Notes under the pieces: generated by a model
What the model was told of the DNA's origin: nothing
Databases searched by the model: none
The model's input: only the letters and a program-made list of their open reading frames with translations
Position numbers and translations under genes: made by a program
Source: a virus
DNA: 23,807 nt
Reading direction: 5' to 3' (one strand)
Virus record (IMG/VR): IMGVR_UViG_3300037042_004253
Span: 1 to 23,807 of that record
Part shown: positions 3,802-23,278 of the stretch, piece after piece
How positions within the stretch are numbered: the first letter of the stretch is position 1
How the letters are laid out: every line of letters begins with the position of its first letter

Positions 3802-4369
3802 TGGTTTCAGAGATTACTTCTTTTATTTTATTTGTTTTTTTATGCCCTCTTCTAACTCCATATAACCTACAACAGAAAGAAGTGGTAATAGCAATCATGT
3901 CTTTAATAATATCGGTTTCTTCTTCATAATCTTTATTCATAACAATAATTTGACAACCCAATTTGAGCAATAATTTTTCCAAATAATTAAATCCAAATCT
4001 TGTCAACCTATCTTTGTGTTCAACAATGATTATGGTCGGCTTTGAGTCAATCATTTTCCACAATCGTTTACGATCATCATTCATTCCGCTAGCAATTTCT
4101 TTATAAATTTTGGTAATTGACAAACCTTTTGTTCCACAAAATTCAATACATCTTTCAATTTGCCTTTGTAGGTCATCTTTTTTATCATGAGAAGAAACTC
4201 TTGAATAAATAACAACATTTTCTTTGTTGACAATTTCTTTGTTTTCTGATACCATAATAGTACCAGTAGGTGTTTTGTAAGCATGAACAGGCATCTTGTT
4301 TTGGTTAAACCAATTATATGCCGTGTTGTAATGCAAACCTTGTTGTCTAGCCCAATCTGATAGTTTCAT
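3794..4369 (-). CDS. tnpA: IS607-type serine recombinase (TnpA)
   Basis: 191 residues. Residues 1-40 form a MerR-like helix-turn-helix (LSDWARQQGLHYNTAYNWF) for DNA binding. A small serine-recombinase catalytic domain follows, with nucleophile S59 in YSRVSS, the DLQRQ helix, and the R121/R124 pair in EHKDRLTRFGF. This order, DNA-binding domain before the catalytic domain, is typical of IS607 transposases and the reverse of resolvases. It would move the element by cut-and-join without target duplication. There is no Shine-Dalgarno site; instead CATATGTA ends 5 nt before the ATG, the same arrangement as at several phage genes here. The 67-residue frame inside it (4081-4284) is a shadow. Confidence 0.92.
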   Translation of the reverse strand: MKLSDWARQQGLHYNTAYNWFNQNKMPVHAYKTPTGTIMVSENKEIVNKENVVIYSRVSSHDKKDDLQRQIERCIEFCGTKGLSITKIYKEIASGMNDDRKRLWKMIDSKPTIIIVEHKDRLTRFGFNYLEKLLLKLGCQIIVMNKDYEEETDIIKDMIAITTSFCCRLYGVRRGHKKTNKIKEVISETND

Positions 4370-4418: not shown

Positions 4419-4835
4419 TTAATTAAAATGTTTAGACACTATTAAAATGTATTTTTTTATCACTTTTTTTAATTCTGGGTGTAGTTTATAGTTTTTAATA
4501 TTTTTAAAATTGACCCACGCCCATCTGGTATGCTCATTACTTAATTTAATTGCTGATGGCTTATTTGTTTTATAGAAAAAACAAGTCCAATTATATTCAT
4601 TTGTTGCATCTATTTTTTTGCCCATTATTTTACCTATTTCTTCTTCAGATTCTCTGATAGCTGTTTTCAATGGTGTTTCTCCCTTTTCTGAGTGGCCACC
4701 GACCAAACCCCAAGTGTTTGGATTTTTTGTGCCCTCTGCTCTTTTTAATAAAAGAACACTTTTGCCATCCGTAAAGAATATGCCAGCCGCATCAGAATGC
4801 TTGGCTTCAGATAATAGCCATTCCTTGAATGTCAC
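4419..4835 (-). CDS. NUDIX hydrolase with capsid-targeting-like N-terminus
   Basis: 138 residues. The Nudix box is complete: G47-x5-E53-x7-R61-E62-x2-E65-E66-x-G68, the Mg2+-binding catalytic loop that hydrolyses nucleoside diphosphates linked to another group. The flanking sequence (WGLVGGHSEKGET before, a WAWVNF strand after) suits a small nucleotide-pool-cleaning or (d)NTP pyrophosphatase type; the substrate cannot be told. The first 11 residues, MTFKEWLLSEA, look like a T4 capsid-targeting sequence with an L-S-E/A cleavage site, followed directly by the Nudix fold. Translation starts at GTG in a GTGA overlap with the upstream gene, so the two are translationally coupled. The head-packaging idea is inference; the enzyme family is sure. 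Confidence 0.92.
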   Translation of the reverse strand: MTFKEWLLSEAKHSDAAGIFFTDGKSVLLLKRAEGTKNPNTWGLVGGHSEKGETPLKTAIRESEEEIGKIMGKKIDATNEYNWTCFFYKTNKPSAIKLSNEHTRWAWVNFKNIKNYKLHPELKKVIKKYILIVSKHFN

Positions 4836-5338
4836 TTTGGACCTCGTTTGAGAGGTATTTTTTTCAAGGTTTGTCTTTCTTGCGTCTTATCAGGTTCTTG
4901 TCGCAATTTGTGCATGGCGTTTCTCAACTCTTTAACTATCTCGGCAGCCGAATCACCATCACATTTTTTAGTAGATTGAATGGAAACTGTTGGCGGAACT
5001 CTATTTTTATTATAAAATCCTTTGGAAATTATAAAACACCCACCATCATGCTCAGGATGAAAATGAACCATCCCAACCCACTCCCCATCATCCCAATTCC
5101 TTGTAGAAATTATTAATCTAATAGGCTCTTCTTCATAAACTTGTTTCACATGATAGCCACTTTGCTTCATGGCAGCACTAACATAACCTAAACAAATCTT
5201 GCTAAATGCCTTTAAAATCTCTGGTTTTTCACTCCTGAAATTTACCTCGATACTATACCTTGTAGCTGTAGAAGCCTCTGCCAAAGTTGTTTGGTCTGTA
5301 ATTGTATCGGCAAAATCTATGTATTCTCTAAAATCCAT
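4832..5338 (-). CDS. Unknown phage protein, coupled to the NUDIX gene
   Basis: 168 residues, no recognised domain. The N-terminus, MDFREYIDFADTI, again resembles the short leader seen in several proteins here, and TLAEA at residues 17-21 offers an L-A-E/A site of the prohead-protease type. The middle (YSIEVNFRSEKPEILKAFSKI, then IRLIISTRNWDDGEWVGMVHFHPEHDGGCFIIS) reads as a mixed alpha/beta domain. The C-terminus is basic (QERQTLKKIPLKRGPK). There is no Shine-Dalgarno site; the octamer CATATATA ends 5 nt before the ATG. The stop overlaps the NUDIX start as GTGA, which makes a two-gene unit. It may be an internal head protein. Confidence 0.65.
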   Translation of the reverse strand: MDFREYIDFADTITDQTTLAEASTATRYSIEVNFRSEKPEILKAFSKICLGYVSAAMKQSGYHVKQVYEEEPIRLIISTRNWDDGEWVGMVHFHPEHDGGCFIISKGFYNKNRVPPTVSIQSTKKCDGDSAAEIVKELRNAMHKLRQEPDKTQERQTLKKIPLKRGPK

Positions 5339-5342
5339 AAGA

Positions 5343-6242
5343 TTATATATGCGTCAAGGAGGTTATGTTTATGTACTCCTCTATAGTTTTAACTGAAAAA
5401 TTCCAAATATTTGTGTTTAAAAAGATATTGTCCCCAGCATCAATACTGCCTAAAGGATAATACTTTCCACTATATTTAGTTTTAAAAACAATTGTTGGTA
5501 TGCCAGCATAATGTCCATATGTTTTTGCCCATGTGTCAACAGATAACATTAATTTCGCACCATTAATGATTTTTAAGCAATCTGTTAGTTCATGTTTATG
5601 AAAATTATTTTCATGGTCCAAAATTCCTTCAAAACACAATTTTTTAACATTTGGATGTTTACTAATGTCGTAATTTAACTGCTCTAACTTTCCAACAATA
5701 AAGATATTTCCTTCTATTGTGTTTATCATTCTAAGCATTTCGTTAGCTTCTATTTTTCTAACCTTTTTTAAAGAACCAAGCTTAGTAATAGGAGAAGAAC
5801 CACATGGAGCAATTATGGTGGCACCATTTTCTTTTTTCCCAATGCTTTGTACATCTAAAGTAGTTGTAATGCGATTTTCGTATTTTTTATCAAACCAATA
5901 TGAATGATTGCAATTATCTGGTAAGTAAGTAGTTGATACACAATTTAATTTATTTTTATAAAAGTTATAGAAACTTTTATAAATTTTTATATCACCTTGA
6001 AAAACTACGGCTTTAATTCCTAATGTTTTAGCTAAATTTTCTATGATTTTTTTATAATTTTTGATAGTAGCCAAAAAAACAATTGTTACATTTTTGGCTT
6101 TAGCTTCTGCAAATCCTATTAAAGCGTCTCCTATTCCTCCCATACACATAATGAATTCATCTTCGATTTCTTTTTTAAAATTATAAAACCTCTTTATAAA
6201 CTCATCTTCAATTTGGTTTAGGTGAACAAATCTTTTAAACAT
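5343..6242 (-). CDS. Glycosyltransferase family 9-like (GT-B fold) protein
   Basis: 299 residues. GGIGDAL at 35-41 matches the N-terminal phosphate/sugar loop of heptosyltransferase-like GT9 enzymes. The second half holds the nucleotide-sugar half: IIAPCGSSPITKLGS near 142-156 and SVDTWAKTYGHYAGIPTIVF near 234-253, the latter like the D-x-x-x-x-H-x-A-x-x-G-x-P signature of the family. The likely role is sugar transfer to a host or phage glycan, or to modified DNA; the acceptor is unknown. It ends 4 bp before the start of the gene at 5338 and so covers that gene's promoter-like octamer (5344-5351). The region before its own ATG has no Shine-Dalgarno site but has GATGTATA 10 nt upstream. Confidence 0.75.
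   Translation of the reverse strand: MFKRFVHLNQIEDEFIKRFYNFKKEIEDEFIMCMGGIGDALIGFAEAKAKNVTIVFLATIKNYKKIIENLAKTLGIKAVVFQGDIKIYKSFYNFYKNKLNCVSTTYLPDNCNHSYWFDKKYENRITTTLDVQSIGKKENGATIIAPCGSSPITKLGSLKKVRKIEANEMLRMINTIEGNIFIVGKLEQLNYDISKHPNVKKLCFEGILDHENNFHKHELTDCLKIINGAKLMLSVDTWAKTYGHYAGIPTIVFKTKYSGKYYPLGSIDAGDNIFLNTNIWNFSVKTIEEYINITSLTHI
5344..5351 (-). promoter_or_regulatory. Late-promoter-like octamer before the gene at 5338
   Basis: CATATATA, then ATCTT, then ATG at 5338. The octamer is identical to the one before gp13 (12665-12672), with the same 5-nt gap. It lies inside the 3' end of the upstream glycosyltransferase gene, so the downstream pair could be transcribed independently. Confidence 0.55.
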
Positions 6243-6251
6243 AAGATAAAA

Positions 6252-8186
6252 TTATACATCCATTTGAGGGCAATATGGGAATGAATGTTTTTGAGAATAA
6301 CCCTTACCAGTTTTAATGGCGTCTATTACATAGTTAAACGCCTCTATAGTTTGTTCTTTCCTACGCTCATAGTGAGCCGACCATCCTAGCACGCTAGCAT
6401 CTCCGTGTACGTTGTGGTGGAGGAGTTGCTTATCTTTAATCTTCTCTTTAAATTCATTTAATTTATCTTCAAGAAATGGTAAAAAATCCTTACCATTTTC
6501 TCCCAATTTTGCTAAACAATGCCCAAAATCACCAATTCCGCCCATTTCACTCCACAAAGGAAGCAACTTCTTATAAAATGCTTGAACAGCGGGTGTATCT
6601 GTGCCAGTATTGGCAAGCGTAGATGCTATCTCTTTTAATATCCCTGCCTTAAATTTTCCAGCATCCTTTTCTGACTCTTTTTCTAAATCAAAAGAATCAA
6701 CATCAAAATTAACAAGTATTTTGACAAGCCTTTCTGGAATTGGTTTAAATATTGTTAATTTTCTGATATAATCTGAAATTTTACCACCTACTGCCCACAC
6801 AGAACTTTGCCAGTCAATGCTAAATTCTGGATTATCTGGCCTAAATCCTTGTTCAAATAAATTGCTTACTGCCCTTCTAATTGTTGTTACCAACTCTGGA
6901 CTTTCTTTGGTTAGCCTCTCTAAATCCCAACCAGATATGCTTTTCAAAGCGCCTTCGTCAGTAAATTGTGGAAATTTACTAATCAAAAGCGATTTTAAAG
7001 CTCCGTTGGTGTTTTGTTTCATTAAGTTATCAAAAATATCTTTGGTAACAAATTCTGGGTAATTTATATAAAATCTGGTCTTGTTAGCTGGTACAGTCAT
7101 ATTGAACATACGCCAGTGCGAGGGAATTAAACCGCCGGTATCTAAATCATCTGTTAGTAAATTTTTTATCTTTAAAACAAATTCTTTTGGCCAATCTTTA
7201 GACTTTAAAAATCCATCAAAAGCTAATTGAAAATATTGAAAATATTTGTTTTTGTCTGTGCCAGGTTTGGACCAACGATTAATCCAAGATATAATTTTTT
7301 TCCTATCTTCAGGATGTGATGGATCTGGTGCTATTAATTCTTTGTTTGAAAAACTATCTGACCACTGTCCCCCCATCTTTTTGTAACGACCAGGAACTAT
7401 TCTTCCTTGTTTTGAATTCAACCATTCTTTTACTTTTTCCAAAAATCCAGGAACCTCTGTTCCATAAACGGTTTCTTCAGGTATTGCTACAGATCCCTTC
7501 TTCCCATCAAATCGCCTAATATGAATCCTGGCAAGAGGTCTCTTTATCTCTTTGTCGTCAGAACGGATCAAATAAGCTACGAATCCACCATTCTTTACTT
7601 CTCGATATATGTCACTAGAATGCGCACCTCCTGCTAAATTCATGCAACTAGTCCATCCTCTACCAGTTGACATTGATGCCACATCATGTGGGTCCATACT
7701 AATCATGACATAAAAAGAAGTTTGTTGAACACGATTAGGGTCGTTCTGGAAACTGTTAGTTAAATTATTAAAATAATTGGCAGTAGCAGCAAGTATTTCT
7801 TGATACTTATAATCAGATAACTTTTTGTGTACATAATAATCATTTTCAATATTAGATTTGTCTTCTAATTCGGCAATAGGCAATATCTTGCTTATTCTAA
7901 ATATTTTCTTGGGCATACCAACAGGACAAGCATGTCCTAATCGGTAATCAACTAATTGATAGCCGTTAGCTGAAAGGGGAAATCCTTGAGAACCACCATG
8001 AAAATCAGATAACATGTCTTTAATTTCTGCCTCTGTTTCCGAAGATATAGTGGTTGAAAAAGGTAAATAAACTCTGGAACCATCTGGAAACCAATGCTTA
8101 AACGGAAAAGACCTGGCTAATGGTTCAATCTTGCCCCTAAAGGGTTCGTATTCTTCTATTCCTTCTAACCAGAGCTTGAATTGCAT
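6252..8186 (-). CDS. Large conserved-looking phage protein of unknown function, candidate head-packaged protein
   Basis: 644 residues from the ATG at 8186. The frame is open for 15 codons further up, but those codons lie in the end of the upstream nuclease gene. Starting at 8186 gives the leader MQFKLWLEGIEEYEPF, like those of other proteins here, with CCTAAATA ending 4 nt before the ATG. Residues ~165-280 look like a compact domain: YVMISMDPHDVASMSTGRGWTSCM and then GGFVAYLIRSDD, RPLARIHIRRF and AIPEETVYGTEVPGF. I have the impression of similar blocks in other large phages but know of no assigned function. The C-terminal half is helical and repeat-free, ending in a basic, histidine-rich tail. 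No catalytic motif could be assigned with honesty. Confidence 0.72.
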   Translation of the reverse strand: MQFKLWLEGIEEYEPFRGKIEPLARSFPFKHWFPDGSRVYLPFSTTISSETEAEIKDMLSDFHGGSQGFPLSANGYQLVDYRLGHACPVGMPKKIFRISKILPIAELEDKSNIENDYYVHKKLSDYKYQEILAATANYFNNLTNSFQNDPNRVQQTSFYVMISMDPHDVASMSTGRGWTSCMNLAGGAHSSDIYREVKNGGFVAYLIRSDDKEIKRPLARIHIRRFDGKKGSVAIPEETVYGTEVPGFLEKVKEWLNSKQGRIVPGRYKKMGGQWSDSFSNKELIAPDPSHPEDRKKIISWINRWSKPGTDKNKYFQYFQLAFDGFLKSKDWPKEFVLKIKNLLTDDLDTGGLIPSHWRMFNMTVPANKTRFYINYPEFVTKDIFDNLMKQNTNGALKSLLISKFPQFTDEGALKSISGWDLERLTKESPELVTTIRRAVSNLFEQGFRPDNPEFSIDWQSSVWAVGGKISDYIRKLTIFKPIPERLVKILVNFDVDSFDLEKESEKDAGKFKAGILKEIASTLANTGTDTPAVQAFYKKLLPLWSEMGGIGDFGHCLAKLGENGKDFLPFLEDKLNEFKEKIKDKQLLHHNVHGDASVLGWSAHYERRKEQTIEAFNYVIDAIKTGKGYSQKHSFPYCPQMDV

Positions 8187-9832
8187 AAAGTATTTAGGGA
8201 GAACAACCATCTTTTCTTGCCACAATCCCAAATTCTTGCCAATCCTCTCTCATGCGACCATTTTGCTTCAGTTATATCTTTAGGGCAGCCTGTGAGAGAC
8301 TTCTTTTGAGATTGTTTGCTCAATCGCTCATAAGGACGCTTTGCATTCACATATGAATAATCAGGAGAAAGTTCCTCTCCTAAAACAAATCCCAATTGCT
8401 TGTAAACATTTCCTTGACTCCATCTATTGTCACTCCAAGTAATAATTTCTTTATACTTGTTTTGAATAGCCCACTCTTTGCACTTCTTGAAAAGCTTACT
8501 TGCACCACCAATCACTTGCACATCAGACCTGAAACAAAGACGATCTAATGTAAGTTTTTCTGAATTCCTGTGATGCCTTCCTAAAGACATGGCGGCAACA
8601 ATTTCGTTATCATGTTCCAAAACATAGAAGACCAACCCCAAATTGTTGCTGGCTTGAAGATGATGTTTATTACAAAATTGGTTAAATTTATGTCGATCAC
8701 ATTCATTGATTTTACACTTTCTAGCATATACTTTGTTCTTTTGTTTTCCCAAAATAGAACATAAAATACCTTTGCACTGTTCCTGCTTTGTTTTCCACTC
8801 ATCCTCAAAAATTGTAATAAGTTGGACGCCTTGTTTTAAACAAGAGATATACTTATCATAATGATAAAACTTCAACCTGGGGCTTGGAGATAATTCATTG
8901 TGCCAAAATAAACCACAATATTCTATTCCAATATTGGTATTTTTGTCATACAAATCAATTTCTTGAGTCCCTAGCAAAGAATAATCTTTCTCAAAAGAAA
9001 ACCCCATTGAATTCAACCAAGTCTGAATATCTTTTTGAGTTTTGCCATAAATCTGATTGCCTTGTAAACATAAAGGATTTGGCACACCAAATTTATACAT
9101 ACATGTTTTAATAAATCTTTCTCTATATTCCTTTGTTTGGGAATAATTTTGAACACCATATCTTTCTAAATTGGTCTTCTTGGCTTTATTTCGATTTTCT
9201 TCCAGTTGGGATGGGTGTTCAACACCATAACGCTTTAAACAGGTTTGTTTTCTTTGTTTCCAGTATGCCTCGGTTTGAACATAGCTTTCCTCACCAAACT
9301 TTTCTTTACAAGTTTTGTTTCGCTTTTTTAGACACTCTGGATTTTGCATCACATGTTCTGCGCCATATTTTTCTAAATTGGTTGCACTTCTTTTTTCTGC
9401 AAATCCTTCAGTATTGGCGTAATTTTTGTGTCCATATTTTTTCAAATTTGTCTCTTGTTGTTTATTTCGGATATCTTCTGATTGAAGTGGACTTTCAACT
9501 CCGTATTTGTCTAATAAACTTTGTTTTCTTTTCTCTTTAAAATCATCACTTTCAAAATACTCTTTTGTACCATATTTTTCTAGATTTGTTTTTTGTTGTT
9601 TTTGTTTAAATGTTTCTGTGTCAAATATTGTGGGGACACCATGTTTGATTATACATATTTCTTTTTGTTTGGCTGCTCTACAAGCCTTTTCGCCACAACT
9701 ATCTTTATTGATAATTTTATTATGCCGTTCTCTGCTCTTTTTAATTCGTTGAAACTCTTTGCCACAATAATCGCATTTTAATTGGATTAGTGAACGAATT
9801 GTTTGGGTGTCGTAGTTGGATTGGAGGATCAT
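8165..9832 (-). CDS. Repeat-array homing-endonuclease-like protein with Vsr-like nuclease and GNAT-like domain (copy 1)
   Basis: 555 residues. Order of parts: (1) a zinc finger, C20-x2-C23 with C46 and C51; (2) eight consecutive 23-residue units from residue 63 to 246, each starting K/R-Y/F/H-G-V and ending near K-T-N-L-E, plus a partial ninth; (3) a nuclease domain of PD-(D/E)XK/Vsr type with D293 in EIDLY, E304 in GIEYCG and H311 in FWHNE, then FEDEW at 342-346; (4) an acetyltransferase-like domain around 370-500 (GLVFYVLEHDNEIVAAMSLGRHHRN, then QVIGGASKLFKKC); (5) the end motif ARIWDCGKKRW. This resembles free-standing Hef-like homing endonucleases. It starts in an ATGA overlap with its paralogue. 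Compared with that copy, it has nine extra C-terminal residues that run 22 bp into the next gene. Confidence 0.85.
   Translation of the reverse strand: MILQSNYDTQTIRSLIQLKCDYCGKEFQRIKKSRERHNKIINKDSCGEKACRAAKQKEICIIKHGVPTIFDTETFKQKQQKTNLEKYGTKEYFESDDFKEKRKQSLLDKYGVESPLQSEDIRNKQQETNLKKYGHKNYANTEGFAEKRSATNLEKYGAEHVMQNPECLKKRNKTCKEKFGEESYVQTEAYWKQRKQTCLKRYGVEHPSQLEENRNKAKKTNLERYGVQNYSQTKEYRERFIKTCMYKFGVPNPLCLQGNQIYGKTQKDIQTWLNSMGFSFEKDYSLLGTQEIDLYDKNTNIGIEYCGLFWHNELSPSPRLKFYHYDKYISCLKQGVQLITIFEDEWKTKQEQCKGILCSILGKQKNKVYARKCKINECDRHKFNQFCNKHHLQASNNLGLVFYVLEHDNEIVAAMSLGRHHRNSEKLTLDRLCFRSDVQVIGGASKLFKKCKEWAIQNKYKEIITWSDNRWSQGNVYKQLGFVLGEELSPDYSYVNAKRPYERLSKQSQKKSLTGCPKDITEAKWSHERGLARIWDCGKKRWLFSLNTLCNSSSG
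8191..8198 (-). promoter_or_regulatory. Late-promoter-like octamer before the gene at 8186
   Basis: CCTAAATA, then CTTT, then ATG. It lies inside the last codons of the upstream nuclease gene and helps to decide the start of the 644-residue protein. Confidence 0.5.
9095..9646 (-). repeat. Eight 69-bp coding repeats in nuclease copy 1
   Basis: The units translate to 23-residue repeats of the pattern K-Y-G-V-x5-Q-x3-x4-K-x2-T-N-L-E. The spacing is exact across all eight units, while the residues after K-Y-G vary from unit to unit. Confidence 0.85.
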
Positions 9833-11532
9833 ATGTTAAATATCCATCTTTTCTTGCCACAATCCCAAATACGAGCAAAACCATTGTTTAACATCCATTG
9901 CTTTTCTGTTTTTGTGGTTGGACAACCTATGTTTTTCTTTTTACAAGATTGTTTATTAATCCGTATGTGACCACGGCAATCAACATAGCTATAATCTGGA
10001 GGCAGTTCTCCATCTAATTTAAATTGCATATTTTTATAAATGTTTCCATCACTCCAACGATTATCGCTCCAACTAATTATTTCTTTGTAATTATTATCTT
10101 TAGCCCATGTAATACATTGTGCAAATAACTTACTTGCACCACCAATTATTTGTGTATCTTTTTTGAAGCAAAGTCTATTTAATGTGATTTGTTCTTTATT
10201 TACCTTACGATGATGACAAGATAGTCCTATAATTCCTAATAATTCATTGTTGTCAAATAATCCAAAAGCAGCTTTAAATTTTGTGCCACCCATAATATGA
10301 TTGTCTTCACAAAAACTGTTGCATACAGAATTATCAATTTTTTCTATTTTACATTTTCTTGCCATTATTCTTTGAGAAAATTTTCTCAATATTGATTTAA
10401 TAAAATCTTTACAATGTTCTTGTTTGTGTCGCCACTCATCCTCAAAAATAGTAATCAAACGAATTCCTTGTTGATTACATTTATTAAATTTCTCATAATG
10501 ATAAGATCTTGTTCTGGGTTCTGGAGAAAATTCATTGTGCCAATAAAGTCCACAATATTCTATGGCTAATTTTAAATTTTCATTATATAAGTCTAGTTCT
10601 TTTCCGCCTAATACTGAATAATTTTTTACAAAGGGAAATCCAAGAGAACTCAGCCAATCTTTAATTTCATTTTCTGTTTTTCCAAATTTACATAAAGGAT
10701 AGGCTGTCCCATATCTTTTAATATTTGTATTTATTGCTTTTAAAAGTATATCTTTATTTTGTAATGGGTTGGGGACGCCATATCTCTTTAAGCACGTTGC
10801 TTTTTTCCTTTCTTTACATTCGTCTGTTTGACTGTATGATTCAACACCATAACGATCTAAACAAGTTGCTTTAAATCTGTCCATTATTTTCTTATCTTGT
10901 AAAGCATGATCGACTCCGTATTTTTTTCTAAACGCTTTTTTTAGGTTTTCTTTGGCGATCTCGGTTTGCATAACACTATCTACACCATATCTTTCTTGGC
11001 AAGTATTCTTTACACCATCCTTCCATTCTTGCGTTTGAGATGGATGGTTTGTTCCATATCTAGAAATATTTGTTTTTCTAGTTTTTGTTTTTACTGATTC
11101 ACTTTGGGTAGCGTATTCTGTCCCATATTTTTCAAGACATGATTTCTTTTTTATTTCTTTCATTTCTTGAGACGACAAATAACTTGTTGTGCCATATTTT
11201 TTTAGACAGGTTTTTTTAATTTTTTCTTTTATTTCTGGTAGTTTTGTAGGATTGCAGCCATATTTTTCTATAAGTTTATTTTTAGCTTTATCTTTATTTA
11301 ATTCTTTATAATTATCCCCATATAATAATCTTTGTGATTCTTCTCTTTTTTTGGGGGTGCATTTAGAACAACTATCTTTTTGCAATATTTTTTTTCCTAC
11401 CAAGATATTGCGTTTAGTTCTTGTAAATTCAATTCCACAATAATCACAAACACAAAAAATATCACTATAAACTTTTACTGTTTCAAAATCATATCCAAAT
11501 TGTTCTTTAGTTTTTTCAAATAATATCATCAT
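9829..11532 (-). CDS. Repeat-array homing-endonuclease-like protein with Vsr-like nuclease and GNAT-like domain (copy 2)
   Basis: 567 residues, the same architecture as the gene directly downstream: zinc finger (CDYC at 29-32, with C55 and C58), eight 22-23-residue repeats at residues 90-272, a nuclease domain with KELDLYNENLKLAIEYCGLYW (split here: ELDLY, IEYCG, WHNE), FEDEW, a GNAT-like domain containing GLSCHHRK and QIIGGASKLFAQC, and the end ARIWDCGKKRWIF. The two proteins are clearly paralogues but have drifted far apart in the repeats. The gene overlaps the 55-residue ribbon-helix-helix gene upstream by 17 bp and the downstream copy by 4 bp (ATGA), so all three form one translationally coupled unit. 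Homing endonucleases spread by cutting copies of the locus that lack them. Family call is good; cutting activity is inferred. Confidence 0.85.
   Translation of the reverse strand: MMILFEKTKEQFGYDFETVKVYSDIFCVCDYCGIEFTRTKRNILVGKKILQKDSCSKCTPKKREESQRLLYGDNYKELNKDKAKNKLIEKYGCNPTKLPEIKEKIKKTCLKKYGTTSYLSSQEMKEIKKKSCLEKYGTEYATQSESVKTKTRKTNISRYGTNHPSQTQEWKDGVKNTCQERYGVDSVMQTEIAKENLKKAFRKKYGVDHALQDKKIMDRFKATCLDRYGVESYSQTDECKERKKATCLKRYGVPNPLQNKDILLKAINTNIKRYGTAYPLCKFGKTENEIKDWLSSLGFPFVKNYSVLGGKELDLYNENLKLAIEYCGLYWHNEFSPEPRTRSYHYEKFNKCNQQGIRLITIFEDEWRHKQEHCKDFIKSILRKFSQRIMARKCKIEKIDNSVCNSFCEDNHIMGGTKFKAAFGLFDNNELLGIIGLSCHHRKVNKEQITLNRLCFKKDTQIIGGASKLFAQCITWAKDNNYKEIISWSDNRWSDGNIYKNMQFKLDGELPPDYSYVDCRGHIRINKQSCKKKNIGCPTTKTEKQWMLNNGFARIWDCGKKRWIFNI
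10717..11265 (-). repeat. Eight coding repeats (one 66 bp, seven 69 bp) in nuclease copy 2
   Basis: Protein units of 22-23 residues with the same pattern as in copy 1 (R/K-Y-G-V-x5-Q ... K-x-T-C-L-x). The number of units equals that of copy 1 even though their sequences have diverged. Confidence 0.85.
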
Positions 11533-11777: not shown

Positions 11778-12659
11778 CTAATCAAGTGTTATAATTAAAG
11801 GCTCTCCAAAGCGCCAAATAAGGTCATTTCTCCACTCCTTCATATCTTCTCTAGCCTCTTGAAGAAGGGTGTCGCCATCTAATTGAATGCCCGAATTTGG
11901 ACCCGGTGGATTTTTGTACTTACCTCTAATTCTGCCGAGTATCATTTTTGCGTAAATCAATGCTCCTTCCTGCATCGACTGTGTAACCTCATCCCAATCT
12001 TTCATTCTTTGAAGATATTGTACCATCACTTTCTGCCCACCACCTGGCGTTGGATAAATTTTAATATGGTGGGTGTCATTTACGAATTCCCAACCACCAA
12101 TATTAGAGCTAACTCGACTATACATCTGCTCGTAATTTTTATATAATACCCATTCGCCTGCTCGACCCCATATTGGTTGGATTGGATCAATTAAACCACC
12201 TTGGATGGATGCGTAGCTTCCACCGGGGTAAAAGTATTCTACAGGAATAGCTCCATCTAAATCGGATGCTTGAAATGCGAATTGACCTGCTTTTTTCCAA
12301 TGAACATTTCTAACCAATCCCACTTCAGGTGGTAATTCATAAACACTTTTACCAGGGGTTGTAATAAAAACATAATAATTGAAATATTCTCTAGGAGCAT
12401 AATCTTCAACAATTTTTAATGCTTGGTCTATACAGAAGTCTATATTTTGTTCATCTAGTTCTATTTGTAGAACAGGGGCTCCTAACATATGCAAAATATA
12501 ATCTCTAATTTGCATTCTGACTTTTTCTCTATTTTTTCTGGGGCCTAATTGACTTTTATTGAGTGGATCAACGTGTCCCAAATCACTACAGGAGCTTTGG
12601 CAACATGCCGATGCCAAGGCATCTTGAGTAGGTCGTCCGATAACTAATGTGTTTGCCAT
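11778..12659 (-). CDS. 13: Neck protein, T4 gp13-like
   Basis: 293 residues, close to T4 gp13 (309). T4 gp13 forms a ring at the head-tail joint with gp14. Residues 51-70 (IRDYILHMLGAPVLQIELDE) match the T4 N-terminal block, in which LKDVILRRLGAP is followed by VELT, and are continued by a helix like T4's DCIQRALELY (FCIDQALKIVEDY). The C-terminal part also follows T4: GALIYAKMILGRIRGKY, then a Gly/Pro loop, IQLDGDTLLQEAREDMKEWRNDL and a final GEPLII, where T4 has [20 protein letters not shown] and PPFGILVG. The gene lies on the minus strand, opposite to gp14 and gp15. It has no Shine-Dalgarno site; CATATATA ends 5 nt before the ATG. Confidence 0.85.
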   Translation of the reverse strand: MANTLVIGRPTQDALASACCQSSCSDLGHVDPLNKSQLGPRKNREKVRMQIRDYILHMLGAPVLQIELDEQNIDFCIDQALKIVEDYAPREYFNYYVFITTPGKSVYELPPEVGLVRNVHWKKAGQFAFQASDLDGAIPVEYFYPGGSYASIQGGLIDPIQPIWGRAGEWVLYKNYEQMYSRVSSNIGGWEFVNDTHHIKIYPTPGGGQKVMVQYLQRMKDWDEVTQSMQEGALIYAKMILGRIRGKYKNPPGPNSGIQLDGDTLLQEAREDMKEWRNDLIWRFGEPLIITLD

Positions 12660-12664
12660 GAAAT

Positions 12665-12672
12665 TATATATG
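12665..12672 (-). promoter_or_regulatory. Late-promoter-like octamer before gp13
   Basis: CATATATA, then ATTTC, then ATG. If the octamer works like the T4 late element TATAAATA (positions -13 to -6), transcription starts at the A of the ATG. Confidence 0.6.
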
Positions 12673-12693
12673 GATATTTTTTATGTTCTGACT

Positions 12694-12701
12694 ACTAAAT
12701 A
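12694..12701 (+). promoter_or_regulatory. Late-promoter-like octamer before the gene at 12707
   Basis: ACTAAATA, then ATTTC, then ATG. The spacer is identical to that of the divergent gp13 promoter 21 bp away. Confidence 0.6.
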
Positions 12702-12706
12702 ATTTC

Positions 12707-13390
12707 ATGAAAACTTTAAAAGAATACACATTGTTAAAAGAAGGGCCATTACCTCCAAATTGGACTCCAAATAAAAGACCAGAACCAAAACCAATAGCAC
12801 CAACTGGACCAGATCCTAGTAGTGCTTGGGTACAGTGGTTGGGAAAATTGCAAAAAGCATTGATAAACAACTTAAACAGCGTGGTTGATCGCTATGAACA
12901 AAAAATGACACAAGCGGTACAAGCCGTGCATACAACTGTGACCAATCCAACCAATCCAACCAATCCAACCAATCCAACCAATCCAACTGCTAATCCAGCC
13001 AATCCAAATTGGTTTAAAGGAAATCAATCTACTTGGAATAGACAAGGTATTTCAGGAATAGCAAAACGATTTTTAGGTGGTGGTAATTGGACTGGAGAGG
13101 CTTGTGAAGTAGCTTATGAATTTGGTCCAACATTGACTGAATACAATAAAATAAAGGACGAAGTATTATTAGAAGTAGAAAAACTTTCTGATACAATATT
13201 TTTTGAGGCTACTGGCGTTCCACAATTTGATGCCATTTTGTCGCAGTTTAAAGATGAAGTTAAGAAATTAATTATTTCTAATATTGCTTGGGCGCAACAA
13301 GGTATGTGGGCTTTTGTGCAAAAAAGAAGAGCGGCTGAACAACAGGCAAAACAACCAATACAGCCTGAAGATAAAACTTTGACTAAATAA
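12707..13390 (+). CDS. Unknown protein with capsid-targeting-like leader and Thr-Asn-Pro linker
   Basis: 227 residues. The leader MKTLKEYTLLKEG closely resembles the T4 head-targeting sequence MKTYQEFIAEA and ends in L-K-E/G, a fitting prohead-protease site. Then comes a proline-rich stretch, a helical part (60-78), a linker of five T-N-P units plus variants, and a C-terminal domain from about 100 with predicted long helices (LTEYNKIKDEVLLEVEKLSD, then LSQFKDEVKKLIISNIAWAQ). A Trp- and Gly-rich patch precedes it. I recognise no enzyme. It has no Shine-Dalgarno site and carries the octamer ACTAAATA before the ATG. It is divergent from gp13 with a 47-bp gap. A head-internal, possibly ejected, protein is my best inference. 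Confidence 0.72.
   Translation: MKTLKEYTLLKEGPLPPNWTPNKRPEPKPIAPTGPDPSSAWVQWLGKLQKALINNLNSVVDRYEQKMTQAVQAVHTTVTNPTNPTNPTNPTNPTANPANPNWFKGNQSTWNRQGISGIAKRFLGGGNWTGEACEVAYEFGPTLTEYNKIKDEVLLEVEKLSDTIFFEATGVPQFDAILSQFKDEVKKLIISNIAWAQQGMWAFVQKRRAAEQQAKQPIQPEDKTLTK
12941..12985 (+). repeat. Five perfect copies of a 9-bp repeat coding for a T-N-P linker
   Basis: Unit ACCAATCCA, five times without a mismatch, then decayed copies to about 13006. It stays in frame and probably varies in copy number by slippage. Confidence 0.95.
13382..13389 (+). promoter_or_regulatory. Late-promoter-like octamer before the gene at 13396
   Basis: ACTAAATA, then ATAAAT, then ATG. The octamer is identical to the one at 12694 and overlaps the last codons of the preceding gene. 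Confidence 0.45.
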
Positions 13391-14791: not shown

Positions 14792-15190
14792 ATGGCTCTT
14801 GTTGTCCCAAATGAAGCGGAAATTACCCTTTTACAGTATTTGGTAAATATGGTTGCTCCAGACGATCCTGTTCTTAGGTTGTACACAAATAATTTAGTTC
14901 CCGATGAGACCACGACGTTGGGGATGTTTACAGAAGCTACTGGCGCTACTGGTTACACAGCCATTACTTTAACTGGTTCTAGTTGGACTACTACATCAGT
15001 TGGAGGCACTACAACTGCTCTTTATAGCGAACAAACCTTCACATTTAGCACAAACGCAAATATATATGGTTATTATGTCACTTCTAGTAGTGGGGCGTTA
15101 TTATGGTGTGAGACGTTCTCCGGTTCTCCCTTCGTTCTACCTGATGGTGGTGGAACGATTGCAATTAGTGCCAGGATACAACTATCGTAA
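14792..15190 (+). CDS. Small beta-rich phage structural protein
   Basis: 132 residues, preceded by a strong Shine-Dalgarno site (AAAGGAGA, 7 nt before ATG) and by CTTAAATA at 14758-14765, a late-promoter-like octamer with a true leader. The composition (Thr, Ser, Gly, Tyr) and alternating strands suggest a beta sandwich: ITLTGSSWTTTSVGG, SEQTFTFS, YGYYVTSSSGALLW, GGGTIAISARIQLS. The opening MALVVPNEAEITLLQYLV and the centre are like a small virion protein I believe is common in phages, but its exact role is not known to me. The 3' end overlaps the convergent homing endonuclease gene by 9 bp. Confidence 0.7.
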   Translation: MALVVPNEAEITLLQYLVNMVAPDDPVLRLYTNNLVPDETTTLGMFTEATGATGYTAITLTGSSWTTTSVGGTTTALYSEQTFTFSTNANIYGYYVTSSSGALLWCETFSGSPFVLPDGGGTIAISARIQLS

Positions 15191-16063
15191 CCATCTGCAT
15201 ACAGTTTTTCTATGTACTCCGATAATGGCTGCTATGGCAGCTTTACTATATTTTTTAGTTTGCCAAAGTTGTATTGCTTTTTTATTTTTTTCTACTAACA
15301 CTATAGAAGATTTATTTTTATTGCCTAGCCACCTTTGTATAGTTTTTCTATCTGTCTTTAATTTTTTGGCTATTTCAATATTGGTTAAACCATTATCTCT
15401 TAACAATTTTGCTTTTTCTTTGGTAGCGTCGTCAAATACCACTTCATGTTTAAGCAAATGTGTTTTGGCAATTGATGTGTCAATTTTATAATCAAAACAC
15501 TTTTGAGGAAGGAATGGAGAAACACCAGCAATGAATTGATAATATGATGCTGTTGGAATTCTAATCATAAATTGATGTTCTCCTCTTTTGGTTATACTAC
15601 TTTCTATTCCAAGATCACTTTTAAGTCGGGTCATTAAAAATAATACATCATTTTTAGTAAAACTCTGTGTAGCCAATATTATCCATTTTCCACTTTGCCA
15701 ATTACATCCATCGTCGGCATACCATGTAGCAACTAGTTCCCAATTTAGAATCAATTCTTTTGGCACTATTTTTTGAGCAAAAGGAAGATTACTTTCATAC
15801 CAATGCAATCTTTCTTTTTCAAAAAAGGGATCTAAACACGTTCTAAACCGATAGCTACAATAGACTTTCTTTTTAAATTGTTTACCGTTTTTAAAATCCT
15901 TAACAAAAGATATCTTTTTACCTTCTGTATATGGGTGCAAAGCTTCATAAGCATGTTCTACCCATTCTTTATTGGCTTCTTTTTGTCCTAAACTGAATCT
16001 ATTTTTACCGCTCTCAATACTCCCATCTCCCAGCATATGTCCGTAAAATACATTTATATTCAT
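15182..16063 (-). CDS. LAGLIDADG homing endonuclease with C-terminal helix-turn-helix pair
   Basis: 293 residues from the ATG at 16063. I chose this over the ATG seven codons earlier because TAGGAGA lies 7 nt upstream of it. It has two LAGLIDADG motifs, VFYGHMLGDGSI near residues 5-16 and VATWYADDGCN near 111-121, each with the catalytic acidic residue (GDG, DDG), so the protein is a single-chain two-motif enzyme. The C-terminus carries two helix-turn-helix motifs (TNIEIAKKLKTDRKTIQRWL and SKAAIAAIIGVHRKTVCRWL). Such enzymes cut long sites and copy themselves into alleles that lack them. It is free-standing, not inside an intron or intein, in the gap between two small phage genes. Confidence 0.9.
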   Translation of the reverse strand: MNINVFYGHMLGDGSIESGKNRFSLGQKEANKEWVEHAYEALHPYTEGKKISFVKDFKNGKQFKKKVYCSYRFRTCLDPFFEKERLHWYESNLPFAQKIVPKELILNWELVATWYADDGCNWQSGKWIILATQSFTKNDVLFLMTRLKSDLGIESSITKRGEHQFMIRIPTASYYQFIAGVSPFLPQKCFDYKIDTSIAKTHLLKHEVVFDDATKEKAKLLRDNGLTNIEIAKKLKTDRKTIQRWLGNKNKSSIVLVEKNKKAIQLWQTKKYSKAAIAAIIGVHRKTVCRWLR

Positions 16064-16170
16064 AATGGCTCTCCTATAAATCAATTCTATACATTATGTA
16101 GTAAAAACACAACAAAAAAAATAAATTCCAACACTATAATATTTGAAAGCCACTAACCAAAGGAAAAAAC

Positions 16171-16459: not shown

Positions 16460-16467
16460 CATACATA
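16460..16467 (+). promoter_or_regulatory. Late-promoter-like octamer before gp14
   Basis: CATACATA, then ATGT, then ATG at 16472. gp14 has no Shine-Dalgarno site. One base differs from CATATATA. Confidence 0.42.
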
Positions 16468-16471
16468 ATGT

Positions 16472-17005
16472 ATGTTAAGGAATTTAAGTGGAACGCCCTA
16501 TAAAGCGATAGGCAGTTTGCAGCAATTTGACCCAGAAAATCCAGCCCATGATTTATTTAATTCATGGGATGAGGAGATAATAAAAATAGGCGGCAGTCCT
16601 ATTTATTATTATGAAGTATTTATACAAAGAGCCACGATTGACCCTCTCTATTGGGAAGATCGTGGCAAATTGTTTAGTCAAGTCCCTGTTCAACTTTGGT
16701 CATTCTATGAACCAGTTTCTCAACAAAACTTCCAAAGCACTTTTGGATTAGATTCTCCAGATGAGTTGATGTTCGAATTAAATTATCGAGCAGTATTGAA
16801 GGCTGTTGGACATCCTCCCAAAGTTGGTTCTAGAATTTTTACTCCACACAAACGAGAGAACTGGCTAATTGTCCAAAGAAAACTTGGTGAATATAGGTTG
16901 TGGGGAGAACTCAGATTGCAATTAGTTTGTGAACGATTCCAAGAAGACATCATTACTGGAGAAGGCAACGTAACAAATCGTGCGCCAGACTTCACTATAA
17001 ATTAA
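16472..17005 (+). CDS. 14: Neck/head-tail connector protein, T4 gp14-like
   Basis: 177 residues. T4 gp14 sits with gp13 in the neck and is needed for joining head to tail. Similar order of blocks: HDLFNSWDEEIIKIGGSPIY (T4 ILADTLVAESIQMRGVECYY), then PLYWEDRGKLFSQVPVQLWSF (T4 [23 protein letters not shown]), FQSTFGLDSPDELMFELN (T4 FFSKFGMQVQDEVTLSIN) and PKVGSRIFTPHKRENWLIV (T4 PKEGDLIYFPMDNSLFEI). The protein ends sooner than in T4. It is followed by a 52-residue gene and then gp15, keeping the T4 order. Confidence 0.85.
   Translation: MLRNLSGTPYKAIGSLQQFDPENPAHDLFNSWDEEIIKIGGSPIYYYEVFIQRATIDPLYWEDRGKLFSQVPVQLWSFYEPVSQQNFQSTFGLDSPDELMFELNYRAVLKAVGHPPKVGSRIFTPHKRENWLIVQRKLGEYRLWGELRLQLVCERFQEDIITGEGNVTNRAPDFTIN
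16995..17002 (+). promoter_or_regulatory. Late-promoter-like sequence before the gene at 17009
   Basis: CTATAAAT; shifted by one it reads TATAAATT, seven of eight bases of the T4 late octamer, ending 5 nt before the ATG. It overlaps the end of gp14. Confidence 0.42.
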
Positions 17006-18362: not shown

Positions 18363-18589
18363 TAGAAATAACTAATAGACTCAAAAGTCCAACACAGGTG
18401 GTCATTAAATCGAAGACTAAACCTCGTTCAATGACGGTGCTTAATATTCCAGGTATTGGTTCTGGCAAAAATGTAGTTTATTTAGCTGACGAACTAACAA
18501 CAGAATATGTTACAAGATCCGAGAAAATTTTTGGATTTATTAAGACTAAATACATATCGGATAACGAATTTAAAATCAAGGGAGATTAA
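18359..18589 (+). CDS. Small unknown protein between gp15 and sheath
   Basis: 76 residues, beginning in an ATGA overlap with gp15 and ending 2 bp before the sheath start, so it is part of the tail operon and translationally coupled. The sequence is basic at first (RLKSPTQVVIKSKTKPRSMT) and then reads as strands (LNIPGIGSGKNVVYLADEL, YVTRSEKIFGFIKTKYISDN), suggesting a small beta barrel. There is no counterpart in the T4 order, where genes 16 and 17 lie here. Confidence 0.7.
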   Translation: MIEITNRLKSPTQVVIKSKTKPRSMTVLNIPGIGSGKNVVYLADELTTEYVTRSEKIFGFIKTKYISDNEFKIKGD

Positions 18590-18591
18590 TT

Positions 18592-20928
18592 ATGCCAATT
18601 ATCAGGGGATTTCCGCCAAGCAATACAATTTCTCCAAGTGTGAGAATTACGGAAAAGGATTTGAGCTTTTATACAACGGATTCTAGTGTTCATAGACTAG
18701 GACTTGTTGGTTTTTGTAGCAAGGGTCCAATTAATATGCCTACGCTGATACAGACCAAAAGAGATTTAAATATCACTTTTGGTTATCCACATCCAGACGT
18801 AAGTGATCCATATTTGATTTATGCAGCAGAACAATATTTGTTAGTGGCTAACGAACTTTATGTGGTTCGAGTTGCTGATGACCAAAATGTAAGTGACGAA
18901 AAAGCTGCCACTGCTGCCGTAGATGCTGAAGCTGCTGGTGGACAGGTTGTCATTAAATCAGACTCCGCTGGAGATTACACATTTGCAGATGACTCATTCT
19001 TCCGTTGGAGATTAAATGGTGTTATTGCTTCTAAAACATTAGTTGTTTTAGCTGGTGTTTATACTTGTGAAGAATTAGTAACTGCTTTAAATGCTCAATT
19101 AACTCCTTATTTTGATGGAATTGTATTTGATTGTTCTGTGAATGATAAGTTAAATGTATCTACGGTTTGGGCTTATGGTCCTGATGCTTCTTTGGAACTA
19201 GTATCTGTGCAGGACGCAATGTATGACGAGGTTGGAATAGGTACTGCAATGATAGCTGCTAATATGGTATCTAGTGCTGATCGTTATCCAGACGATTCTT
19301 ATACTGTTGCTGGAACATGGGATTTTACTGGGTTGACCAATCTGAATCTTCAGATTGTTGTTGATGGGACAGACAATGTTCTTATTGACAATGTTATCCA
19401 AACTGTTGACCTAGGCAGTTTAGAAGGGCTTGTTAATACTACTGCCGATGTTGTAAACGCAATTAATGATGCTGTTACTAATGGTGATGTTCCTGGTGGC
19501 TTTATAGCATTGGTTGCTGGAGATAATTTTAGAGTCGTAGCATTACATGTTGGTAGAGACTCAAAGCTTTTAATAAAGAGTTCTAGTACCGCTGGTGATA
19601 TTTTATCTTTGGATCATGTTACTCATGTTGGCACCAGTCCAGAAGGCTCCACTGATGATGCTGCTGTTTATACTTATGGTATTGTTTATGGTAGCACAAA
19701 TACTTTAGGCACAATTAGTCTTGAAATTACAGCCGATAGTGCTGGTATTGAAGGCAACAATACGCAAGTAGATGTGATTAATGATCCTAGTGAAGGTACT
19801 TTCTCTATGATTATTTACAATAATGGAGTAGAAGTTGAATCTTGGGGTTATTTGACTATGGATTCTACAAGTCGTTATTATGTAGAAACATACATATCAT
19901 TGGTTTCTGATTACATTAGAGTAACTAATCCTGGTTACACAAATTCGCCACCAAGAGATGGAACATATACCCTTATTGGAGGTAGTGATGGTATTCCTTC
20001 TGATCCAGACGATCAGGACACATTGCTTATTGGAAGTAATATTGGATATACAGGAATGTATGCCTTAAGTGATCCAGAACAGATTGAAATTGATATCTTA
20101 GCTGTTCCTGGACATAGTTCTACATCAGTCATTGATGCAATGATTGATATGTGCGGAAATGTCCGCATGGATTGCATGTGCATTGTTGACCCTCCATTTG
20201 GATTGACAGTTAGTGAAATCGTACAGTGGCAGAATGGAACACATCCATTAAATGATACTAGATTTGATTCTGACTTTGCGGCACTTTACTGGCCGTGGGT
20301 TAAAATTAGAGATACTTATAATAAAGTAGATGTTTGGGTTCCGCCATCTGGTTCAATTTGTGCGGTTTATGCCAGAAATGATGCCCTTGGACAACCTTGG
20401 TTTGCTCCTGCTGGCGCTAGCCGTGGTATTGTTCCTGGTATCGCAGATGTATTTAATCGTCCAACTTTGGAAGAGCGAGATTCAATGTATGGAAATCGCA
20501 ATTGTGTTAATCCAATTGTTCAGTTTGTTGACTTGCAAGACTTCACAGTTTGGGGTCAAAAAACTATGCAACGTAGACCAACGGCTTTGGATCGTGTAAA
20601 TGTTAGAAGACTGATGTTTACAATTGAAAAGAGAATAAAGAAAGCTTGTAGAGGCTTGTTGTTCGAACCACATGATGATGTATTCCACCAACAATTTACC
20701 CAAATTTCAGGAGCCATTCTTGAGGAAATTAAAATTGGTAGAGGTTTATATGATTATATTATCAAGGCTGATTGGGAACTAAATACCCCTGATGTTGTAG
20801 ATCGTAATGAATTTAGAGCAAGAATTGGTGTACAACCTGTTAAAGCGGTAGAATTCATATTTATTGAATTCAGCATTCACAGAACTGGTAGTTGGACAGA
20901 AGATACCGAACAACCTTACACTTCGTAA
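18592..20928 (+). CDS. 18: Tail sheath protein, T4 gp18-like
   Basis: 778 residues (T4: 659). It forms the contractile outer tube that drives the inner tube through the host envelope. The N-terminus is typical (ISPSVRITEKDLSFY, then HRLGLVGFCSKGPINMPTLI and LNITFGYP). The C-terminal half carries the conserved core: TLLIGSNIGYTGMYALSDPE, then IDILAVPGH, WPWVKIRDTYNKVDVWVPPSG, APAGASRGIV, RRLMFTIEKRIKKACRGLLFE and VVDRNEFRARIGVQPVKAVEF, the last like T4 VIDRNEFRGDMWIKPARSI. Between about residues 100 and 470 lies a long, beta-rich, acidic insertion that should sit on the outer surface and explains the extra length. Shine-Dalgarno GGGAG is 6 nt before the ATG. Very sure. Confidence 0.95.
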   Translation: MPIIRGFPPSNTISPSVRITEKDLSFYTTDSSVHRLGLVGFCSKGPINMPTLIQTKRDLNITFGYPHPDVSDPYLIYAAEQYLLVANELYVVRVADDQNVSDEKAATAAVDAEAAGGQVVIKSDSAGDYTFADDSFFRWRLNGVIASKTLVVLAGVYTCEELVTALNAQLTPYFDGIVFDCSVNDKLNVSTVWAYGPDASLELVSVQDAMYDEVGIGTAMIAANMVSSADRYPDDSYTVAGTWDFTGLTNLNLQIVVDGTDNVLIDNVIQTVDLGSLEGLVNTTADVVNAINDAVTNGDVPGGFIALVAGDNFRVVALHVGRDSKLLIKSSSTAGDILSLDHVTHVGTSPEGSTDDAAVYTYGIVYGSTNTLGTISLEITADSAGIEGNNTQVDVINDPSEGTFSMIIYNNGVEVESWGYLTMDSTSRYYVETYISLVSDYIRVTNPGYTNSPPRDGTYTLIGGSDGIPSDPDDQDTLLIGSNIGYTGMYALSDPEQIEIDILAVPGHSSTSVIDAMIDMCGNVRMDCMCIVDPPFGLTVSEIVQWQNGTHPLNDTRFDSDFAALYWPWVKIRDTYNKVDVWVPPSGSICAVYARNDALGQPWFAPAGASRGIVPGIADVFNRPTLEERDSMYGNRNCVNPIVQFVDLQDFTVWGQKTMQRRPTALDRVNVRRLMFTIEKRIKKACRGLLFEPHDDVFHQQFTQISGAILEEIKIGRGLYDYIIKADWELNTPDVVDRNEFRARIGVQPVKAVEFIFIEFSIHRTGSWTEDTEQPYTS

Positions 20929-20949: not shown

Positions 20950-21525
20950 ATGGCTGGTAATTTGAATAATATGGGACTTTGGGAACTTGGAAATTCTAAA
21001 ACAATTTTTAAGAGAAAGTTCCGTTGGACTTTTGCGGTTAACCAAATACCGTGTGGTGGCGGGTCTATTCCTGAAAGTTTTGTAAAAACTGCTAATCGTC
21101 CGTCTTATAATTTTGAAGAAACACAAATTGATTTCTTACATGGAAGAACTTGGATTCCTGGAAAAATAACGTGGGAAGATATGGAAGTAGTTTACTATGA
21201 TGTGGCAACAACAGTTATACAACCGTTATGGGCTTGGCTAATTTCTGTTTATGATGTTGGTGGAAGTTTTAAAATGAATAGTACCACTGGCATAGGTGAA
21301 GCTGGAAACGCCAAAGCTACTCTTACTATGTATGATGGTTGTGGCACAGTATTAGAACTATGGGTAATGTCCCGCATTTGGCCAAAAAGTGTTAATTTTG
21401 GAGAATTGGATTATAGTAATTCAGAACCATGTACTATAACACTTGGACTCAAATATAGTAATGCTCAATATATTCCAATTTGCCCAAGCTTTAATGTAAG
21501 CTGTGGTTGCGTAGGTTGTGGATAA
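20950..21525 (+). CDS. 19: Tail tube protein, T4 gp19-like (first copy)
   Basis: 191 residues (T4: 163). Its family forms the hexameric rings of the inner tail tube. The start FKRKFRWTFAVNQIPCGGG is the first strand pair, and the C-terminal signature is clear: LELWVMSRIWPKSVNFGELDYSNSE and CTITLGLKYSNAQY, where T4 has KEIEIKGLWPTNVGELQLDWDSNNEIQTFEVTLALDYWE in the same order (given here only by its parts). Shine-Dalgarno AAGGAG lies 6 nt before the ATG, 21 bp after the sheath stop. A cysteine-rich C-terminal tail (CPSFNVSCGCVGCG) is absent from T4 and from the second copy. A strong terminator follows. Confidence 0.88.
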   Translation: MAGNLNNMGLWELGNSKTIFKRKFRWTFAVNQIPCGGGSIPESFVKTANRPSYNFEETQIDFLHGRTWIPGKITWEDMEVVYYDVATTVIQPLWAWLISVYDVGGSFKMNSTTGIGEAGNAKATLTMYDGCGTVLELWVMSRIWPKSVNFGELDYSNSEPCTITLGLKYSNAQYIPICPSFNVSCGCVGCG

Positions 21526-23254: not shown

Positions 23255-23278
23255 TTAATTTATGTAAAAATATGAAAA

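Follow-up and report, generated by a model that had tools for sequence, protein, structure and literature searches.

The analysed stretch of DNA, referred to below as the window, is a 23,807-base IMG/VR record, i.e. a 24-kb fragment. In the window, a 47-bp gap (positions 12660-12706) separates two divergent genes, one encoding a gp13-like neck protein and the other a 227-residue protein for which neither a PHROG nor a Pfam family was matched (Table 1). On either strand the gap reads an octamer, then ATTTC, then ATG, where the octamer is CATATATA on the minus strand and ACTAAATA on the plus strand, and each of the two octamers is identical to the T4 late octamer TATAAATA in 6 of 8 letters. Inspection of the sequence revealed no Shine-Dalgarno (SD) site before gp13 or before the gene at 12707. 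Each octamer also occupies positions -35 to -42 relative to the start of the opposite gene. The initial annotation of this DNA had described octamer-ATTTC-ATG on both strands, at exactly -13 to -6 and without SD sites, and the letters were found to be as described. Within the gene at 12707, a 9-bp unit, ACCAATCCA, is repeated seven times over positions 12941-13007 and encodes the NPT repeats of the protein.

Table 1. Features of the divergent gap and comparable gene starts in the window
Feature	Position	Strand	Remarks
gp13-side octamer CATATATA	12672..12665	-	T4-late-type; -13 to -6 of the gp13 ATG at 12659
Octamer of the 12707 gene, ACTAAATA	12694..12701	+	T4-late-type; -13 to -6 of the ATG at 12707
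Predicted transcription start, A of the gp13 ATG (5'-AUG mRNA)	12659	-	inferred from octamer spacing and -1 pyrimidine
Predicted transcription start, A of ATG	12707	+	inferred from octamer spacing and -1 pyrimidine
gp13-like neck protein / head-tail adaptor Ad2	11778..12659	-	phrog_211, E 2.6e-16; 52.6% identical to LR756511
227-aa protein of unknown function, NPT repeats	12707..13390	+	no family match
Third octamer-ATG fusion, CATATATA-ATCTT-ATG	5344..5351	-	before gene 4832-5338(-)
Fourth octamer-ATG fusion, CATACATA-ATGT-ATG	16460..16467	+	-12 register; before gene 16472-17005(+)
SD site GGGAG of the tail sheath gene 18592-20928	18580..18584	+	contrasting start; kept in relatives

Gene starts in the window

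Two more starts in the window have an octamer fused to ATG (Table 1). Among the orthologues of the gene at 4832-5338 the octamer lies within -16 to -12 in five out of seven, and among those of the gene at 16472-17005 the motif is at -13/-12 in six out of nine. In contrast, operon-internal structural genes of the window, e.g. the tail sheath gene, have strong SD sites that are conserved among relatives. The pattern MTANATAN5ATG has three matches in the window (5338-, 12659- and 12707+), all of which are ORF starts, compared with a shuffle mean of 1.04 and with at least three matches in 10 out of 100 shuffles. With the 4-nt spacing included, the motif precedes 4 of the 25 gene-start ATGs, compared with 1 among the 844 remaining ATGs (Fisher p 2.6e-6). 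Judged by the bare pattern count, the window by itself is insufficient to establish the motif, and it is the relatives that decide.

Other genes of the window include two neighbouring minus-strand genes at 2545-4369 that match transposase and recombinase families, a pair that we take to be IS607-like; the start of one of them, gene 3794-4369(-), reads CATATGTA-ATTAT-ATG, which is near the motif. An adjacent pair of homing-endonuclease genes (8165-11532, phrog_3339 in both) and a LAGLIDADG-type gene (15182-16084) are located near gp13, and two consecutive tail-tube genes (20950-21525 and 21623-22147) belong to one family, phrog_4542.

Source of the window and its relatives

The closest named record is LR756511, a 595-kb uncultured phage that presumably stems from the huge-phage study of Al-Shayeb et al. 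2020. Besides gp13 (Table 1), the gene at 17346 shares 41.7% identity with it. Relatives of gp13 were found at 13 IMG/VR loci and those of the sheath at 54, and gp13 also gave weak matches to T4-like and jumbo phages. The contig is a member of an uncultivated huge-phage group. A search for the host by scanning genomes for the tail sheath found no relatives, and a scan for IF3 returned one 40% match, from a Sulfurovum MAG, which is too weak for naming a host.

Two regions of LR756511 are recorded here as separate observations. The stretch 1-50000 has a GC content of 0.46, above the rest of the record, and an ORF density of 0.58, below the rest; stop codon reassignment or a non-coding stretch is possible. 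Directly after gp13, LR756511 has a second divergent pair, at 23239-23532(-) and 23554-24063(+) in the numbering of its piece L069, with 21 bp between the genes, in which octamers adjoin both ATGs in the -13 and -16 registers. The plus-strand gene of this pair is in the same orthologue group as the window gene 4832-5338.

Position of the octamer relative to gene starts

The position of the octamer was analysed in 16 records with a GC content of 28-58%, namely LR756511, 14 related IMG/VR records and the window. Starts were defined by a simple ORF caller as the first ATG of ORFs of at least 80 aa (100 aa in some of the LR756511 and gp13 analyses); GTG and TTG starts were not counted, and ORFs within 100 bases of a piece end (80 for the 6-mer count) were excluded. 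For the pooled statistics, starts with identical last 25 upstream bases were counted once, leaving 2,378 out of 2,479; all starts were used for the Fisher counts of starts versus other ATGs, for ATG specificity and for the orientation of neighbouring genes. Genes are truncated at piece ends, and the final stretches of four records (G005, G008, G010 and G011) are absent from the data. Since the records are akin to each other, the pooled p-values overstate independence.

The motif N[AC]TANATA was found at -13/-12 in 122 of the 2,378 distinct starts, where approximately 6 are expected (background 3.2 per position). It was also in excess further upstream, with 56 occurrences at -16 to -14 (about 9.5 expected) and 233 at -45 to -17 (92 expected). 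Expressed as excess counts, these values correspond to about 116 putative promoters at the 0-nt geometry, a further 46 at 1-3 nt and another 141 at -17 to -45. No comparable peak over gene starts was given by the reverse complement of the motif. In LR756511 alone, the motif is present at 42 of 793 gene starts versus 22 of 21,101 other ATGs (p 4e-45), and in the record with 58% GC (G004) at 11 of 279 starts versus 3 of 5,601 other ATGs. The single-record Fisher p was below 0.05 in 14 out of 16 records, the exceptions being G012 (1/37) and G014 (0/19).

Unbiased position-specific 6-mer counts in LR756511 ranked TAAATA at -10 among the SD words. ZOOPS EM motif discovery (12 random starts) in LR756511 and G004 did not recover the motif, and the evidence for it rests on the position-specific word count and regex histograms. 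The group consensus is N[AC]TA[A/T]ATA. In an alignment of 78 starts, no conserved -35 element was visible at -45 to -31, and nothing beyond a mild bias towards AT from -30 to -27. An SD site is present in 2 of the 114 starts with NNTAWATA at -13/-12 versus 952 of the 2,264 others; part of this exclusion is geometric, because the octamer occupies most of the SD space. For starts with the octamer at -40 to -21, an SD site is present in 108 out of 198.

These counts bear on several expectations of the initial annotation. The octamer peak that it anticipated at -13 to -6 is sharp, and the limitation of this peak to genes without SD sites was borne out, with the geometric reservation given above. 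The prediction of leaderless late mRNA is likewise supported by the sequence in that the 0-nt geometry accounts for a large class, but "as a rule" is too strong, given the 141 excess octamers at -17 to -45. From the three excess counts, we regard the predicted leaderless mRNAs as a large class that stands beside ordinary SD leaders. The label "T4-like phage" should be replaced by that of a gp55-bearing huge phage, a distant relative of T4.

Control phages

All eight named control phages carry gp55. T4, KVP40, RaK2, PA5oct, Syn9, P-SSM2 and the jumbo Vibrio phage 2.275 have only 0-2 occurrences of N[AC]TANATA at -13/-12, and their excess is at -17 to -45; RaK2 (32% GC) and PA5oct (33% GC) lack the -13/-12 peak even though they are AT-rich. 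The annotated starts of T4 that were examined are preceded by 14 perfect octamers at -22 to -37 and by none at -13/-12.

In HTVC008M, a T4-like pelagiphage, the motif is located at exactly -13 in 11 of 156 starts versus 5 of 5,400 other ATGs, and the excess is 10.3 at -13/-12 versus 3.6 at -45 to -17, so that this phage comes closer to leaderless mRNA as a rule than the huge-phage group. Its motif genes include those of the tape measure, DNA end protector, head closure and baseplate proteins. For the motif genes within 4,000-52,500, all eight starts agree with the GenBank annotation; HTVC008M was the only genome in which start calls were checked against annotation. It also contains a divergent octamer/ATG pair (NC_020484, 18392-19440), with 26 bp between the DNA end protector and head closure genes. 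Smaller peaks at -13 were observed in its relatives Mosig (5/156) and Melnitz (3/159).

Features of the motif starts and their conservation

A pyrimidine followed by a purine is the usual context of a bacterial transcription start. Among the 122 motif starts, 111 have a pyrimidine at -1, compared with 1,123 of the 2,256 remaining starts and 73 of the 117 non-start ATGs preceded by the motif; by register, the values for the -13 and -12 starts are 86% and 97%. In the -16 and -15 registers, A or G stands at -3 in 80% and 75% of the starts, respectively. The motif is specific for ATG: it precedes 125 of the 2,479 first ATGs, compared with 3 of 907 in-frame GTG/TTG codons further upstream and 18 of 1,921 internal ATGs. 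Divergent upstream neighbours are found for 64 of 119 motif genes versus 250 of 969 SD genes (p 1.5e-9).

Among orthologue pairs with less than 80% identity, the motif at -13/-12 is present in both members of 77 pairs, in one member of 124 and in neither of 1,141, whereas about 14 pairs with the motif in both are expected under independence. Of the 11 records with a gp13-family gene, 10 carry the octamer within -16 to -12 before it, and the eleventh (G004) has an SD site instead. A spacing of 5 nt between octamer and ATG is found for gp13 of the window, L003, L008, L009, L012, L013 and LR756511. The N-termini of these proteins are unequal in length, i.e. the distance from the ATG to the conserved N-terminal residues varies. 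Since the spacing is constant while the N-terminal stretch varies, what is held is the distance from the octamer to the ATG, not that from the octamer to the coding sequence. Counter-examples also exist, namely an SD-like site in L005 and spacers of 8 nt in L002, L007/L014 and L010, while the arrangement in L004/L006/L011 is ambiguous. A PHROG scan of 10 representatives of the motif genes returned gp13 and a few weak matches. Because 5 of the 10 have no family, a late structural role is demonstrated for only some of the motif genes.

Transcription and translation genes of the relatives

The gp55 family (phrog_234) was detected in 11 of 15 records of the relatives, including LR756511, where it matches in two places; the 24-kb window was left out of this search. 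Two gp55-like proteins that were examined contain only sigma region 2 (Sigma70_r2). The family aligns with T4 gp55, sharing N-terminal (NNK) and central segments, and the clamp-binding C-terminus of T4 gp55 is not evident in the proteins of the relatives; the ORF chosen from L088 for this comparison proved not to be the sigma and is disregarded. For the LR756511 protein, the general sigma family phrog_351 scores about equal to phrog_234. The family of RNA polymerase beta subunits was found in none of the nine records searched; because of this absence, the enzyme acting at the predicted promoters is likely the host polymerase. The search for gp45 (phrog_223) gave 0 out of 12, but it matched in no genome whatever, so that this zero carries no information on the clamp.

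Phage-coded genes for IF3 and bS21 were observed in three of nine records: LR756511 (325993-326250 and 332226-332384), G001 and G002. A tie between these genes and leaderless translation is speculation; G004 has the -13/-12 peak, and neither gene was detected in it.

Discussion

We interpret the 47-bp gap as two divergent T4-type late promoters that are fused to the start codons and give rise to leaderless late mRNAs. We hold this interpretation to be very likely. The observations that support it are the positions of the octamers, the genome-wide peak, the conservation, the initiator-like pyrimidine, the specificity for ATG and the gp55-like genes of the relatives; the transcription start site, the late timing and translation from a bare AUG are inferred, in the absence of RNA 5'-end data. 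In the proposed mechanism, a phage-coded gp55-like sigma factor, which has region 2 only and hence would make no -35 contact, would bring the host RNA polymerase to the TANATA octamer, and transcription would begin 5-6 nt past the octamer, on the A of ATG. Both mRNAs would thus begin with 5'-AUG, and a ribosome recognising the terminal AUG would translate them without a leader. Because the octamer of either gene falls at -35 to -42 relative to the start of the other, polymerase at one promoter of the gap would probably exclude polymerase at the other at any given moment. For the -13 register, the T4 geometry, with the octamer from -13 of the transcript, would place +1 on the A of ATG. The -12 register, which makes up half of the peak, is one base short of the T4 spacing and would place +1 one base further; the near-universal pyrimidine at -1 suggests that the A may still be used. 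Starts in the -16 and -15 registers would probably have leaders of up to 3 nt.

A closely related possibility is that the octamers are true late promoters from which transcription starts at the ATG or, by slippage, up to 3 nt upstream, so that the leaders are 0-3 nt long. The excess at -16 to -14, the 8-nt gp13 spacers and the purines at -3 in the -16 and -15 registers would fit such leaders, but we consider this reading unlikely, as the main peak is at -13/-12 and its -1 pyrimidines point to the A of ATG. The mRNAs might also be leaderless but transcribed with a host sigma factor reading a -10-like box, not with the phage gp55-like sigma. TANATA does resemble a -10 box, and leaderless mRNA from a -10 box adjacent to ATG is common in many bacteria. 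However, TANATA is one base shorter end to end than TATAAT and matches T4 TATAAATA, no -35 element accompanies it, there are gp55-like genes that encode sigma region 2 alone, and other gp55 phages have the same octamer at -17 to -45; we therefore give little weight to the involvement of a host sigma factor.

That the A/T-rich block is not a promoter but a translation signal on longer mRNAs, acting as an unstructured standby site or A/T-rich enhancer, appears very improbable. The block occupies the usual place of the SD site, and AT-rich genomes often have A/T-rich starts; yet it is specific in sequence and strand, is found at 58% GC, is associated with divergent neighbours and a -1 pyrimidine, and is missing from the AT-rich RaK2 and PA5oct. 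Chance in AT-rich DNA is compatible with the pattern count in the window alone, which is inside the shuffle range, but it is hardly credible in view of the position-specific enrichment in 16 records and the conservation among orthologues. For the group as a whole, the position-specific tests ruled out chance AT-richness, as did the record with 58% GC and the AT-rich controls. Three other candidates were rejected as well: miscalled starts whose genuine, SD-led ATG lies further inside the gene (an ATG of this kind is available in 1 of 119 motif genes), a hidden -35 element for host sigma-70 (none seen in the 78 aligned starts) and a phage RNA polymerase (no beta-subunit family in the nine records).

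The late transcription of T4 is the textbook system, in which the promoter is followed by a leader with an SD site. In the accessible part of the source, T4 late promoters are described as an 8-bp TATA box at -13 without a -35 element (PMC2988020). The huge-phage group resembles this system, which uses gp55, gp33 and gp45 with the host RNA polymerase, in having an octamer near TATAAATA, no -35 element and, in most records, a gp55-like sigma. Unlike in T4, where octamers at -22 to -37 leave room for an SD leader, the largest single peak of the group is fused to ATG. Phage repressor mRNAs such as that of lambda cI are leaderless. Leaderless mRNAs are also described in bacteria, e.g. mycobacteria, in the part of the source available to us (PMC4633059). 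With these and lambda cI, the motif starts share a -10 element adjoining the ATG, the lack of an SD site and the AUG start; here, however, a class of late genes and a phage sigma are involved, not host genes or single repressors.

HTVC008M, Mosig and Melnitz (Kyanoviridae) share the -13 peak, and HTVC008M the divergent pair, but they are T4-like phages of marine bacteria with ordinary size and a clear gp55 match. For pelagimyophages, late-promoter prediction was reported as failed, and the word "leaderless" has no occurrence in the accessible portion of that paper (PMC7029224). The study by Al-Shayeb et al. 2020 is connected with our group by LR756511, the nearest named relative and presumably one of its records, and by the IF3 and bS21 genes. 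As far as its available text goes, missing SD sites were noted there for huge phages with possible rpS1 genes, whereas leaderless late promoters were not described (PMC7162821). For AR9, long leaders are reported, and phage transcripts are said in passing to be often leaderless, in the excerpt of the source at hand (PMC5312081). Searches of the open-access literature brought up no account of leaderless late mRNA for T4-like, jumbo/huge or pelagic phages. What would be new is the proposed fusion of a T4-type late promoter to the start codon.

More tentatively, we suggest that in the huge-phage group and, independently, in pelagimyophages a large part of late virion-gene expression may proceed via leaderless mRNAs from promoter-ATG fusions, and that in the huge phages IF3 and bS21 may tune host ribosomes to 5'-AUG, so that these mRNAs would be translated by a route apart from that of SD-led host mRNAs. 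This joint proposal is possible but remains doubtful. The prediction of leaderless mRNA is testable in the cultured phage HTVC008M. The promoter-ATG fusion also offers a reason for the failed searches for late promoters in pelagimyophages, and the motif would allow better calling of start codons in uncultivated huge phages. A promoter located on the start codon in gp55 phages would change the expected translation route of virion genes.
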